DNA from: Bacteroidota bacterium
Lineage (GTDB): Bacteria > Bacteroidota > Bacteroidia > Bacteroidales > FEN-979
DNA length: 47,882 nucleotides
Reading direction: 5' to 3'
NCBI GenBank assembly: GCA_026391845.1
Contig: JAPLDG010000312.1
Location: 1 to 47,882 of the forward strand
Positions 1 through 43,241 of this stretch are shown here, in pieces. Made by a program: the position numbers and the translations under genes. Under the pieces are notes generated by a model that had not been told where the DNA came from, did no database searches, and saw nothing but the letters and a program-made list of their open reading frames with translations. How positions within the stretch are numbered: position 1 is the stretch's first letter; the number at the start of each line of letters is the position of its first letter.

Positions 1-1013
1 GAACGGAACTTCACGCGGTACGGGTTTTTCTTGCCATCACTGACAATGTAAACTCCTAACTCACCTCTTGCTGTCTCAACCCGTTGGTAAAATTCGCCCT
101 CCGGTAGTTTGACAACACCTTTCATCTTGACAGCGTAGTCACCTTCCGGGATATTGTCGATCAACTGCTCAATGATGTGCATTGATTCGTACATCTCTTC
201 GATTCTCAAACGGTAGCGGGTAAATGTGTCGCCTTTGGTATCCAGTTTTTCTTCGAACTGTACCAGTGGATAGGCGCTGTATGGCTGATGTTTTCTAACG
301 TCGCAGGAGAATCCTGAACCACGTCCTGCCGGACCGGTTACGCCCCAGGCGATCGCGTCTTCACGCGAAAGATAGCCGATCTCTTTAGTACGTTCCTGAA
401 AGATGACATTGCCGGTCAGCAGTTCATCGTATTCGGGTAGTTTCTTTTTGAATTCCTTGATGAATTCTTTGACCCTTTTCTGGAAATTCGGATGAATGTC
501 CCACATCAGTCCGCCGGGCGTATAATAGCTGTGTAACAGCCTGGATCCGCAGGATTCCTCGAAGATGTCGAGGATTTTTTCGCGGTCGCGTAATCCGTAA
601 AAGAAGCAGGTGAGCCCGCCCATATCCATTCCGAAGCTGCACCACCACAGTTGATGGGAGGCAATGCGGTTGAGTTCGTCAACAATGGTACGGATATATT
701 TTACACGTTCGGGAACTTCGACTTCGAGAGCATTCTCTACCAGCAGGCACACTGCATGGTTGTTAATGTGAGCCGAAAGGTAGTCCATCCGGTCGGTGAG
801 GTGGATGATCTGGGGATAGGTATCCTTTTCACACATTTTCTCAATCCCGCGATGGATATAGCCACAGTGAGGTTTCAGGCTTTTAACGATCTCTCCCTGG
901 AGTGAAACTACCAACCGCAACACCCCATGCGTGGAGGGATGCTGTGGCCCCATATTGATATGGTACTCCTCCTCCTCAACATTTTTAACAGGCAGGTTAA
1001 TGACTTCTTTCAT
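1..1013 (-). CDS. nuoD: NADH-quinone oxidoreductase subunit D (partial, runs off the left edge)
   Basis: Manual translation from ATG at 1013 (minus): MKEVINLPVKNVEEEEYHINMGPQHPSTHGVLRLVVSLQGEIVKSLKPHCGYIHRGIEKMCE..., the characteristic NuoD N-terminus; open to base 1. Confidence 0.95.
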   Translation of the reverse strand, partial: MKEVINLPVKNVEEEEYHINMGPQHPSTHGVLRLVVSLQGEIVKSLKPHCGYIHRGIEKMCEKDTYPQIIHLTDRMDYLSAHINNHAVCLLVENALEVEVPERVKYIRTIVDELNRIASHQLWWCSFGMDMGGLTCFFYGLRDREKILDIFEESCGSRLLHSYYTPGGLMWDIHPNFQKRVKEFIKEFKKKLPEYDELLTGNVIFQERTKEIGYLSREDAIAWGVTGPAGRGSGFSCDVRKHQPYSAYPLVQFEEKLDTKGDTFTRYRLRIEEMYESMHIIEQLIDNIPEGDYAVKMKGVVKLPEGEFYQRVETARGELGVYIVSDGKKNPYRVKFR

Positions 1014-1016
1014 ACC

Positions 1017-1381
1017 TTACAATTCTACGATGTTAACTTCATCAACATAATCTTTGCGAAGCGGATGACCGATCCAGCCCTCTTCGAGGAAGACCTGTCA
1101 ACCGCGCCATTTATGCGATCTTCGGTACGCACCTTGAGGACCAGCTGATGTTTGTGGGTGGTTGATTCGAGATGGTAAACCACTTCCAGGAATTTCACCA
1201 TATCGACGCCTGACAAGCAAAAGAGGTAATCGAATTTCAAATCATCCTCCGCCTTTAGTCTGAGAGCGAAATCATGAAATTTGGCCGGCGGAATGACGAA
1301 GGTGAGAAATTGTTTGTTTTCCTGGAATTCTGCGTCGGGAACAAGCCCCAGAATGCGCTCCTTCAATGCTGCGTTGTCCAT
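1017..1381 (-). pseudogene. nuoC: NADH-quinone oxidoreductase subunit C, internally deleted and frameshifted
   Basis: N-terminal part (MDNAALKERILGL...YHLESTTHKHQLVLKVRTEDR) is in one frame; the expected C-terminus (VFLEEGWIGHPLRKDYVDEVNIVEL*) is in another frame ending at 1017. The central EREVYDFFGI-type signature region is absent. Confidence 0.8.
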
Positions 1382-1394
1382 CTTGGGAATTTTT

Positions 1395-1946
1395 CTATTT
1401 TAATTCTAATGTTCGTTTCGGATTTGCCATCGATTCCAGCTTGATCTTGCGCTGGAGCTGCATGACGCCATACAGGAGGGATTCGGGGCGGGGCGGACAG
1501 CCGGGAATATATACATCCACGGGAATTACATGGTCAACGCCACGGATAACATGGTAGGAATTATAAAAGAACGGGCCGCCGGAAACAGCACATGCGCCCA
1601 TGGCAATCACATATTTTGGGTCAGACATCTGGTCGTACAACCGCTTGAGTACCGGCGCCATTTTATTCACGATGGTTCCTGCGACCACGATCACATCAGC
1701 CTGCCGGGGAGAGGCACGATAGACTTCGATGCCAAACCGGCTGAAATCATGGCGTGAAGCGCCGGTAGCCATCATTTCGATGCCGCAGCAACTGGTGGCG
1801 AAAGTAAGCGGCCACAACGAGTTGGACCGGCCCCAGTCAATTACAGCATCAAGTGTGGTCATCAGGATATTTCCTCCTGATTGTTTGAACAGATCCAGGG
1901 TTTCATTGTCGCGGAAATCCGCATCTTTCATGTTTTTTATTCCCAT
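1395..1946 (-). CDS. nuoB: NADH-quinone oxidoreductase subunit B
   Basis: [30 protein letters not shown] and [16 protein letters not shown]...[11 protein letters not shown] motifs. Confidence 0.97.
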
Positions 1947-2287
1947 TTCAAGGCTCCTTTCTTCCAGGCGTATAAAAGGCCCAGTCCCAATACGAAAAAG
2001 AAAATGACAATTTCAATGAAGGCAGTCATTCCCAATTCTTTCATGACGACAGCCCAGGGAAATATGAATACGCTTTCAACATCGAACACCAGGAAAATAA
2101 TGGCGAATAAGTAGTACCCGACATTAAATTGCAGCCAGGTAAGCCCTTCGGTGGGGATCCCGCACTCGTAAGGTTCGGCCTTTTGGGGGTTGGTGGAATT
2201 GGGCGCCGCAAAATGGGCCAATACGATGGCAAACCCTACCAGAAAAGCCCCAACGATAAAAAACAGGATCAGACTTTCAGCACTCAT
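1937..2287 (-). CDS. nuoA: NADH-quinone oxidoreductase subunit A
   Basis: [17 protein letters not shown]...[10 protein letters not shown]...[12 protein letters not shown]; start chosen at 2287 rather than the ORF-track start 2353. Confidence 0.94.
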
Positions 2288-6172: not shown

Positions 6173-6460
6173 ATGTCAACACTATCAAATTACCTGACAA
6201 AGAGTTACAGCGGCATTTTTGGAAACCAGGTCATCCTGAAAAACCGCAAGGGCAAAACGGTCATGATCATCCCGGGACCGGGAAAGAGACAGAAACCTTC
6301 GGAAAAACAAACCGCCTGGCGTCGGAAATTCCGGATTGCTTCGTGCCATGCAACAACCATTCTGAAAGATCCTGAAATACTGGCTGCATACCGGGCAAAA
6401 GCACGCAAGGGGCATACCGCTTATAATCTGGCGTTAAAGGATTGTCTCAAGCCAGCCTGA
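6173..6460 (+). CDS. Small conserved-type hypothetical protein (95 aa), Lys/Arg-rich
   Basis: MSTLSNYLTKSYSGIFGNQVILKNRKGKTVMIIPGPGKRQKPSEKQTAWRRKFRIASCHATTILKDPE...; resembles small Bacteroidota hypotheticals with an FGN..LKNRKGKT start and AYNLA..D end. Confidence 0.65.
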   Translation: MSTLSNYLTKSYSGIFGNQVILKNRKGKTVMIIPGPGKRQKPSEKQTAWRRKFRIASCHATTILKDPEILAAYRAKARKGHTAYNLALKDCLKPA

Positions 6461-11514: not shown

Positions 11515-11534
11515 CCGGATAATACTTTTATGGT

Positions 11535-12047
11535 ATGTTGAAACGACTGTTGTTTTTTATTATAATTTCCCTCTCTGCATTTGTTGTTCCGGCTCAAACC
11601 CCGGTATTGCCCTCTTCATCATTCGCCATGCTGCGTGCGATACCAGGCGTGAACAGAACGGACCTGATCACCTTTGCAAAACTCTTCCTCGGTACACCTT
11701 ATCGCCTGGGCGGTTCTGATCCGAAGAGAGGTTTTGATTGTTCCGGTATTGTCAGTTATGTGTACAAACATTTCAACCTGGCCCTTCCCCGGAGTTCAAG
11801 GGAATACAAATCGCTCGGAACTGCCCTGAAACCTGAAGAGTTCAAGGTGGGCGATGTGGTGGTTTTCTATGGCAACAGGGACAGGGGCCATATAGGGCAT
11901 GTGGGGATTATCTGCGAAGCGGATGGCATGAGGTCGAGGTTCATTCATGCTTCTTCGGGAAAAGCTCATGGTGTTACCATCAGCAGTCTGGAGTCACAGG
12001 GATATAAACGACGCTTTTACAAATGCATTGATGTGATCAGCCGTTAA
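11535..12047 (+). CDS. NlpC/P60 family cysteine peptidase
   Basis: Signal peptide; GTPYRLGGSDPKRGFDCSGIVSYVYKHFNLALPRSSREY...GDVVVFYG...HIGHVGIICEADGMRSRFIHASSGKAHGV. Confidence 0.93.
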   Translation: MLKRLLFFIIISLSAFVVPAQTPVLPSSSFAMLRAIPGVNRTDLITFAKLFLGTPYRLGGSDPKRGFDCSGIVSYVYKHFNLALPRSSREYKSLGTALKPEEFKVGDVVVFYGNRDRGHIGHVGIICEADGMRSRFIHASSGKAHGVTISSLESQGYKRRFYKCIDVISR

Positions 12048-12059
12048 TTGCTGCGCTTT

Positions 12060-13658
12060 TCATTGGTCTCCTATGAGCAATCCGGCCAACCGTTCATCCA
12101 TGCTGTAAATATCTTCATAAAAATTAATCTCCCCCTCCTGGTTCACCCAGGCGGTGAAATAGCCGATATAAACAGGTATTTTCGCTTTCAGTGAATAGGA
12201 GCTTTCTTTTCCGCCGTGCATGGCAGCGTCTATTTTTCCCGGGGTCCAGTTAGGGTCATCCCTGAGAATTTCAACCGCCAGTTCTCTCGGTTTTGCCACC
12301 CTGATGCAGCCATGGCTGAATGCCCTTCTTTCCTGCGAAAAAAGGCTTTTAGCGGGTGTATCGTGCATGTAAATATCGTTGGAGTTGGGAAAGATGAACT
12401 TGATGAGGCCAAGAGAGTTGTTTTTTCCCGGTTTCTGGCGTACCAGGCCGTTGTTCCATTCCATGTTGTGCGATTCCAGGTAGTTTTTATTCTTTGCCAT
12501 CCCCGGCTTCACCTCTTTGTTGATGATGCTCTGGGGCAGATTCCAATAAGGGCTGAATACGATGTAACTTAACATCCCGCTAAAAATAACCGTTTTCGTT
12601 ACATTTTTTCCGACAACCACCGGGGATACCAGTTCGCTTTTCCCATTGCGGACCAGGTTCAGTTTAAAGGAGGGGATATTGACAACGATATACTCTCGGG
12701 CTTTGGCGAATTCAGGGGATATCCAGCGGCAACGCTCCATGTTCACGATGATTTTCCGGATCCGTTCGCCAATCGGGACGTTCATCTCTTTGATATGTTT
12801 CGGAGAAATCAATTTGTCGGGGTTGTAGCCGTTTCGCAGCTGATACTTCTCCACCGCTTCAACCAGTTCAGGATCATACTTGTTGCTTCCGTTGTTTTGT
12901 TTGATATCGCCCGTAATAAAAAGGCGATCCCTGATTTGCTGTATCGCTTTTGCGGTGTCGCCCGGTTTATAGGCTTTGAGTTTGGGATCGAGGATTATTT
13001 GATTCCATCCCCCGTTTTTCTCAATTTCCCGGTAACGCTGCAAGACATCCCGCAATTTGTAATACTGACCAAACAAAACTTTATCATCCCTGTTCAGCAA
13101 TTGAGGATTCAGCATGACTGAATCCAGTAAGCCATTATAAGAAAGTTGTTTGCGCGGAAGTAACCACCCGGTGGCCAGCGTGGAGTCTTCATCTACTCCC
13201 TGATATACTTTTTTGGCATAGAAGAGGTACAGGTTGGTCAGCATCAGGTCTGTTTCTGTGTCCGTCAGTGTGTTTTCGATGTCATTATTAAAAACACCTT
13301 CAATTTTTTCCCGATATGGAAACCTGGAAGAGACTCCTTCATCTTTTAACTCGTTTACTTTATTAAAGAGGGTTTGGCCAAATTCCACCACCCCTTTTTC
13401 ATCAAACCAGATATGCTTGAAATGATGTTCCCGATAAACCGCAACAACCTCTTTTTCATATCTGGCTAATCCGGGATAGGACTGGTAAAAAGTATTGAGC
13501 AGGTTGCTGTCGAACGCAATGTTGCTTTTTTGGTTTATCGCTACATGCAACAAGCCATCCGAGGTCTTCCTGGTACGGGCATTTTTGAGCTGGCAAGAGC
13601 CGTTCGCCAATGAAATCAGCGCAACAACTACGATAAAAGGCAATGTGAATTTTCTCAT
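12060..13658 (-). CDS. YcbB-like L,D-transpeptidase, probable lipoprotein
   Basis: MRKFTLPFIVVVALISLANGSC lipobox-like; ...IRKIIVNMERCRWISPEFAKAREYIVVNIPSFKLNLV...IYMHDTPAKSLFSQERRAFSHGCIRVAKPRELA. Start 13658 preferred over 13751. Confidence 0.92.
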   Translation of the reverse strand: MRKFTLPFIVVVALISLANGSCQLKNARTRKTSDGLLHVAINQKSNIAFDSNLLNTFYQSYPGLARYEKEVVAVYREHHFKHIWFDEKGVVEFGQTLFNKVNELKDEGVSSRFPYREKIEGVFNNDIENTLTDTETDLMLTNLYLFYAKKVYQGVDEDSTLATGWLLPRKQLSYNGLLDSVMLNPQLLNRDDKVLFGQYYKLRDVLQRYREIEKNGGWNQIILDPKLKAYKPGDTAKAIQQIRDRLFITGDIKQNNGSNKYDPELVEAVEKYQLRNGYNPDKLISPKHIKEMNVPIGERIRKIIVNMERCRWISPEFAKAREYIVVNIPSFKLNLVRNGKSELVSPVVVGKNVTKTVIFSGMLSYIVFSPYWNLPQSIINKEVKPGMAKNKNYLESHNMEWNNGLVRQKPGKNNSLGLIKFIFPNSNDIYMHDTPAKSLFSQERRAFSHGCIRVAKPRELAVEILRDDPNWTPGKIDAAMHGGKESSYSLKAKIPVYIGYFTAWVNQEGEINFYEDIYSMDERLAGLLIGDQ

Positions 13659-14208: not shown

Positions 14209-15267
14209 ATGGAAAAACCATTGCTGGTCTATTTCTTTTCAGGTACCGGCAATGCCCGCAACGTGGCGCATTGGTTTACCGGTGTTGCACAGGAGATGAG
14301 CATCACTAATGAAACGATCGATATCGCAAAGGTTGACCGGAAAAACATCCAGCCGCTGCCACCCGGCTCAATGGTAGGGTTTGTCTCCCCCACCCATGGA
14401 TTCAACTATCCTCCTGCCATGATGTACTTCATCTTCCGCTTTCCCCGATCCAGGGGAAACAGTGCCTTCCTGATGAACACCCGGGCAGGGATGAAACTTT
14501 CAAAGTGGTTTCTTCCGGGACTGAGCGGTCTGGCGCTCTGGCTTTCGGCTTTGGTGCTGCTGTTCAAGGGCTACCGGATCGTGGGGCTGCGTTCCGTTGA
14601 CCTGCCATCCAACTGGATATCCTTCCATCCGGGTCTGAAAGAAAATGTGGTGAAATCGATTTATGAACATTGCAAAGGCGTTACGGTAAAATTTGCCACA
14701 AAAATTCTCTCCGGAAAAAAGGTTTATACGGCTTTCCGTGACATCATCCAGGATTTGCTGATTTCGCCGGTCAGCATCGGTTATTTCTTTGTCGGGCGTT
14801 TCATTCTCGCTAAATCATTTTACGCGACAAATGCCTGCGACAAATGCGATCTTTGCATCAACAACTGCCCGGTGAAGGCCATTCTGACAGTTGACAACCG
14901 CCCGTTCTGGTCATACCGCTGCGAAAGCTGCATGCGCTGCATGAACGACTGCCCCAAACGCGCCATCGAAACCGCCCATGGATATATCATCGGCATCATG
15001 TGTCTGCTCAACATGGGAATCATGATCTGGTTCTGGCAATGGGTTAGCGGATTCATCAACATCCCGGAACACAACGGGTGGGCACAGACAGGTGTCACGC
15101 TCTCCGGATGGGTTTTAACTTTCGCCGTGATGGTGGTATCTTATCGTATCTTTCATTATTTGCTGCGAATCCCCGTTATCCGGCAACTTTTTTACTACAC
15201 CTCTTTTACGAAATATAAATTCTGGAGGAGGTACAAGCCTTCACGGAAAATGGTTGCCGGGATTTGA
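14209..15267 (+). CDS. EFR1-type protein: flavodoxin-like N-terminus plus two 4Fe-4S clusters, C-terminal TM helices
   Basis: MEKPLLVYFFSGTGNARNVAHWF; CDKCDLCINNCPVKAI; CESCMRCMNDCPKRAIE; hydrophobic C-terminal segments. Confidence 0.85.
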   Translation: MEKPLLVYFFSGTGNARNVAHWFTGVAQEMSITNETIDIAKVDRKNIQPLPPGSMVGFVSPTHGFNYPPAMMYFIFRFPRSRGNSAFLMNTRAGMKLSKWFLPGLSGLALWLSALVLLFKGYRIVGLRSVDLPSNWISFHPGLKENVVKSIYEHCKGVTVKFATKILSGKKVYTAFRDIIQDLLISPVSIGYFFVGRFILAKSFYATNACDKCDLCINNCPVKAILTVDNRPFWSYRCESCMRCMNDCPKRAIETAHGYIIGIMCLLNMGIMIWFWQWVSGFINIPEHNGWAQTGVTLSGWVLTFAVMVVSYRIFHYLLRIPVIRQLFYYTSFTKYKFWRRYKPSRKMVAGI

Positions 15268-41955: not shown

Positions 41956-42016
41956 GTTTCAGGTTTAAAAATCAAGGTAAAATTAAAAATATATGCGTTG
42001 TCGTCTTTAAAAATTT

Positions 42017-42024
42017 TACTTTTG
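42017..42024 (+). promoter_or_regulatory. -7 box TACTTTTG upstream of pgk
   Basis: aattttTACTTTTGcttcg type match 15 bp upstream of the first ATG. Confidence 0.5.
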
Positions 42025-42038
42025 CTTCGATAATCTAA

Positions 42039-43241
42039 ATGAACAACAACATGCTTACAATTGACAATTTCACTTTTAAAGATAAAAAGGCACTGATCAG
42101 GGTTGATTTCAACGTTCCCCTCGATGCTCAGAATCAGATAACGGATACAAACCGCATTGATGCCACCATTCCAACCATTACCAAGATATTGAACGACGGA
42201 GGGGCTGTGATCCTCATGTCGCACCTGGGAAGGCCAAAGGGAGGACCGGAAGAAAAATATTCTCTGAAACATGTGATACCCTATCTCTCAAAAGAGCTGA
42301 ACCGACCGGTAAAGTTTGCCGATGATTGCATTGGGCAGTCTGCCACAGATTTAGCCGGTTCCCTGAAATCGGGAGAGGTGTTGCTGCTCGAGAACCTCAG
42401 ATTTTACAAGGAGGAGGAGAAGGGTGATAAGGAATTTGCCAGAAAACTGTCCCTTCTGGGCGATATGTATGTCAACGACGCTTTCGGCACTGCACACCGT
42501 GCCCATGCCTCTACCGCCATCATTGCCGAATTTTTTCCAAAAACAAAGATGTTCGGCTATGTCATGGCCAATGAGATCATCAACATCGACAAATGCCTGA
42601 AAGACGGCAAACGTCCGATCACCGCCATTCTGGGAGGAGCCAAGGTATCGACAAAAATCGAGATCATCAACCATCTGATGGACAAAGTTGACAACCTCAT
42701 CATTGGCGGCGGCATGATGTTCACTTTTATCAAAGCGCAGGGTGGGGAAATCGGGGCCTCCATGGTGGAAGATGAGTACCTCGAAATGGCGAAGAACATC
42801 ATAGAAAAAGCCAAGTCAAAGGGTGTTAACCTGTACCTCCCCCCTGATGCCATCCTGGCCGATGCCTTTTCAAACGATGCCAATAAAAAGACCAGCAGCG
42901 CCTACGATATCCAGGTTCCATGGATGGGACTCGATATAGGGCCTTCGGCATGCGCAAAATTCGACCATGTTATTGATCAGTCAGGAACCATCCTGTGGAA
43001 CGGTCCGATGGGTGTTTTTGAAATGAACAACTATGAGGCAGGTACGAAATTCATCGCGCTGGCTTTGGCCAGGGTCACTGAAAAAGGCACTTTTACGCTG
43101 GTTGGTGGCGGTGATTCGGTTGCGGCCGTCAATAAGTATGGTCTGGCCGACAAGGTCAGTTATGTTTCGACCGGCGGAGGCGCCATGCTGGAGTACATTG
43201 AAGGCAAAGAACTCCCCGGCATCAAGGCCATCATGGATTAG
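42039..43241 (+). CDS. pgk: Phosphoglycerate kinase
   Basis: [77 protein letters not shown]. Confidence 0.98.

Follow-up and report, generated by a model that had tools for sequence, protein, structure and literature searches.

A broken nuoC gene in a Bacteroidales draft genome and its probable origin in metagenome assembly

The nuoC locus and its closest described counterparts

NuoC, the 30-kDa subunit of complex I (PF00329), is encoded in Bacteroidales by an 11-subunit operon, whose gene order A-B-C-D is shared by the locus described here. Chen et al. 2020 (PMC7111523), a guide to the curation of metagenome-assembled genomes, treats unsupported local errors of assembly, chimeras, and N gaps placed where the flanks in fact overlap. 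The present assembly resembled such cases in displaying broken genes in otherwise conserved loci, N-runs over overlapping flanks and, at the end of a contig, a conserved gene with a chimeric join. In contrast to that guide, where read support is the criterion, the presumed artefact was judged here from the assembled sequence.

The window, i.e. the whole stretch of DNA analysed, was contig C214 (47,882 bp). The draft genome to which it belongs comprises 343 contigs and 4.64 Mb, with an estimated completeness of 93 %. Its nearest named relatives were metagenome-assembled Bacteroidales, and many isolate names among the relatives suggest a lake habitat. The contig started with nuoD (cut by the contig end), nuoC, nuoB and nuoA on the minus strand, nuoC occupying its expected position between nuoB and nuoD (Table 1).

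On the minus strand, nuoC extended from an ATG at 1381 to the ancestral TAA at 1017-1019, in agreement with the coordinates first assigned to it, and measured 365 bp, against 459 bp (152 codons plus stop) in all 29 orthologues compared, which were gathered from the genus and the family. As written, the ORF encoded 118 aa. Alignment of the DNA traced the difference to a single gap of 94 bp at window ~1095/1096, falling on the coding strand between GGTTGACA and GGTCTTCCTC, with normal sequence on either side. Since 94 is not divisible by three, the final 25 codons were shifted to another frame. The internal deletion and frameshift reported in the preliminary description were thereby confirmed, with altered dimensions: in aligned DNA the intact N-terminal part comprised ~95 codons instead of 75-80, and the missing part 31 codons plus one nucleotide instead of roughly 40 residues.

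The lost stretch corresponded to 32 residues in the closest relative and, as had been anticipated, took in the conserved segment with the ER-E-x-x-D core. PF00329 matched the window NuoC over model positions 2-63 of 124 only (42 bits), against 3-118 in a relative; the N-terminal half of the domain was present, and the conserved core, which sits inside the missing 94 bp, was absent. The window copy retained 91 % protein identity to NuoC of Bacteroidales over its first 89 residues and a conserved C-terminus, but differed from it by the loss of 94 bp of the conserved core and by its broken frame.

Comparison with six congeners over codons 1-92 gave dN/dS values of 0.06-0.10 for the window, inside or beneath the 0.07-0.18 spanned by those congeners among themselves. 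No relaxation of selection was apparent in these codons, although a very recent event would leave no such mark. Private residues of the window NuoC were limited to two, of which one lies in the N-terminal part and the other beside the junction, in the C-terminal part. Both surviving pieces bear the mark of purifying selection, so that a true deletion could only be very young.

The same deletion was not found in the genus or among GTDB relatives, and a 32-mer spanning the junction was matched in neither genome_contigs nor viral_contigs. Among GTDB loci, the 22 closest (at least 66 % identity) all matched the query NuoC over its full length, one being short by a single residue. It had been considered beforehand that a close relative might carry the same short protein in a single frame; none of the 29 orthologues was short. 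Two candidates for a shared deletion were ruled out: the short frame of relative G011 was a contig end, and the lack of a full hit in G010 reflected the absence of the copy from that assembly. An intact second copy of this operon's nuoC was not found elsewhere in the genome. PF00329 had two further matches, a 521-aa ORF on contig C280 and the NuoC encoded by a separate nuo operon of 14 genes on contig C64, an operon present ancestrally in the genus.

Neighbouring nuo genes

The nuo operon had been described as otherwise intact, with complete nuoA, nuoB and nuoD. This held for nuoA and nuoB but failed for nuoD, which was truncated by the contig end and chimeric, and for nuoH to nuoN, which were not found in the assembly (NuoH tested). 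Congeners were 76-87 % identical among themselves over the nuoD 3' stretch where the window dropped to far lower values (Table 1), and the closest proteins to the 3' half of NuoD (up to 80 %) were those of other families of the order. The only match in the assembly to nuoH, the gene next after nuoD in relatives, was the copy of the second operon (43 %). As identity falls at ~520, the protein matches point to other families and nuoH is missing, the contig end is more likely chimeric than recombinant. The 3' half of nuoD (window 1-520) derives from another lineage of the order, one that is unsampled.

Identity to congeners was steady across the nuoC junction. A switch of species at this point was ruled out, both sides being related to the congeners alike.

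Elsewhere in the window, a gene at 42000-43232 (92-93 % identical to congeners) displayed an in-frame stop at 42036, near the start codon of the congeners; this may merely indicate a different start site.

Table 1. Coordinates of the nuo genes in the window, indel sites of the census and palindromes of the second nuo operon (L063, on contig C64, i.e. G000:C64)
Feature	Sequence	Position	Strand	Remarks
nuoA	window	1937..2287	-	intact, 116 aa; longer in-frame ORF from 2353; protein start and end match relative L067
nuoB	window	1395..1946	-	intact, 183 aa
nuoC 5' part	window	1096..1381	-	codons 1 to ~95, normal sequence
nuoC junction	window	1094..1098	-	94 bp of all relatives absent; exact base ambiguous by a few positions
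nuoC 3' part	window	1017..1095	-	VFLEEGWIGHPLRKDYVDEVNIVEL and stop, in another frame
nuoD 5' half	window	530..1013	-	own genus; 83-90 % DNA identity to congeners, counted together with nuoC 3' part
nuoD 3' half	window	3..520	-	of another lineage; congener DNA identity 65-70 %; runs to contig end; position of switch approximate
Indel site, nuoC	window			-94
Indel site, nuoM of second complex I operon	L063	17496		~-113, frameshift
Indel site, HD-domain gene				~-140
Indel site, DUF255 gene				-37
Indel site, AraC-type gene				~-25
Indel site, PreP-type peptidase gene				+5
Indel site, urocanase gene				N-run of wrong length
Imperfect palindromes	L063	about 6220-6345, 11520-11635, 12650-12770, 13340-13450, 14335-14450		between nuo genes of second operon

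Indels and N-runs in the genome

Coding DNA of this genome and of congeners was compared for indels in both directions (104 kb here, ~206 kb in four congener sets). The raw sequence of this genome taken into the census came to 708 kb, about 15 % of its length. Only seven sites were encountered, all of them in the 104 kb of this genome and none in the ~206 kb of congeners. At equal rates, the chance that all seven would fall in this genome is about 5e-4 (simple binomial on the lengths compared). In-frame stops were left out as a measure of breakage; they are noisy, since they also arise in relatives from antisense ORFs and extended starts. One such stop (TAA at L063 14890) was found in nuoL of the second nuo operon, where relatives read on.

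Short N-runs were also frequent, with 32 in 687 kb of this genome against one in ~1.1 Mb of relatives. Where a relative covered the same place, several deviated from the expected length, with 33 for 17, 17 for an overlap of 19 and 47 for 0 (approximate values, projected from translated matches). Wrong gap lengths are the behaviour of scaffold joins with estimated gaps.

Several intergenic gaps of the second nuo operon contained imperfect palindromes of ~110 bp with TGCAAAATGCAAA-like arms. Similar repeats were present in a congener (G018, locus L069), and at a guess they might represent a small mobile or REP-like element.

Origin of the gap

The broken nuoC is most likely an assembly artefact and not an unusual gene. 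The preliminary description had left a choice between a recent deletion and an assembly or strain-variant error; the evidence favours assembly error, because the genome carries an excess of comparable indels absent from relatives together with wrongly sized N gaps, and because the same contig is chimeric ~570 bp further on, at the lineage switch in nuoD. Three observations stand against it: the junction itself displayed no N-run, no repeat of useful length that could explain a false join or a graph collapse was found nearby, and the steady identity over the junction shows that it is not a join between species. Two pieces of ordinary nuoC would have been joined with about 94 bases left out during metagenome assembly and scaffolding, possibly through a spurious match of a few bases between the ends of two contigs, accepted where depth was low. 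We infer a common technical cause for the nuoC gap, the other indels, the wrong N gaps and the chimeric nuoD, which would be mis-joining during assembly or scaffolding.

A real and very recent 94-bp deletion that inactivates nuoC in this strain or population is unlikely; in that case the second complex I operon, or none, would take over. The flanks of the gap are clean and of one lineage, and the loss could be tolerable given the ancestral second operon. However, that operon is damaged as well (nuoM break, in-frame stop in nuoL), nuoC shows no sign of relaxed selection, and similar breaks in other, unrelated genes of this genome, but not in relatives, make a special cause for nuoC unnecessary. 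If the deletion were true, nuoC would be an ordinary pseudogene.

Genome-wide decay, in which the lineage would be losing genes, including both complex I operons, by many small deletions, is very improbable. The seven indel sites, and the fact that three of the visible lesions lie in nuo genes of both operons, would accord with it, but the flanking codons are under strong constraint, the affected genes have no common function, and the N-runs of wrong length and the chimeric nuoD require a technical cause anyway. A functional short NuoC, or one rebuilt by programmed frameshifting over the junction, is hardly credible: the N-terminal frame is free of stops ahead of the junction, but the family's conserved core has been lost, none of the relatives carries a short form, and a frameshift would not bring back the 31 missing codons.

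Taken at face value, the broken nuoC would mean loss of complex I in this lineage. It is very improbable that the two complex I operons of this population were both inactivated recently (nuoC here; nuoL and nuoM on C64) and that the assembly shows it shortly after losing a respiratory enzyme that is otherwise conserved. The census shows that reads are needed before a broken gene in this assembly is interpreted. With assembly artefact as the preferred explanation, the organism most likely has a gene for a normal NuoC of 152 aa, part of a complex I with 11 subunits (nuoABCDHIJKLMN) like that of its congeners.
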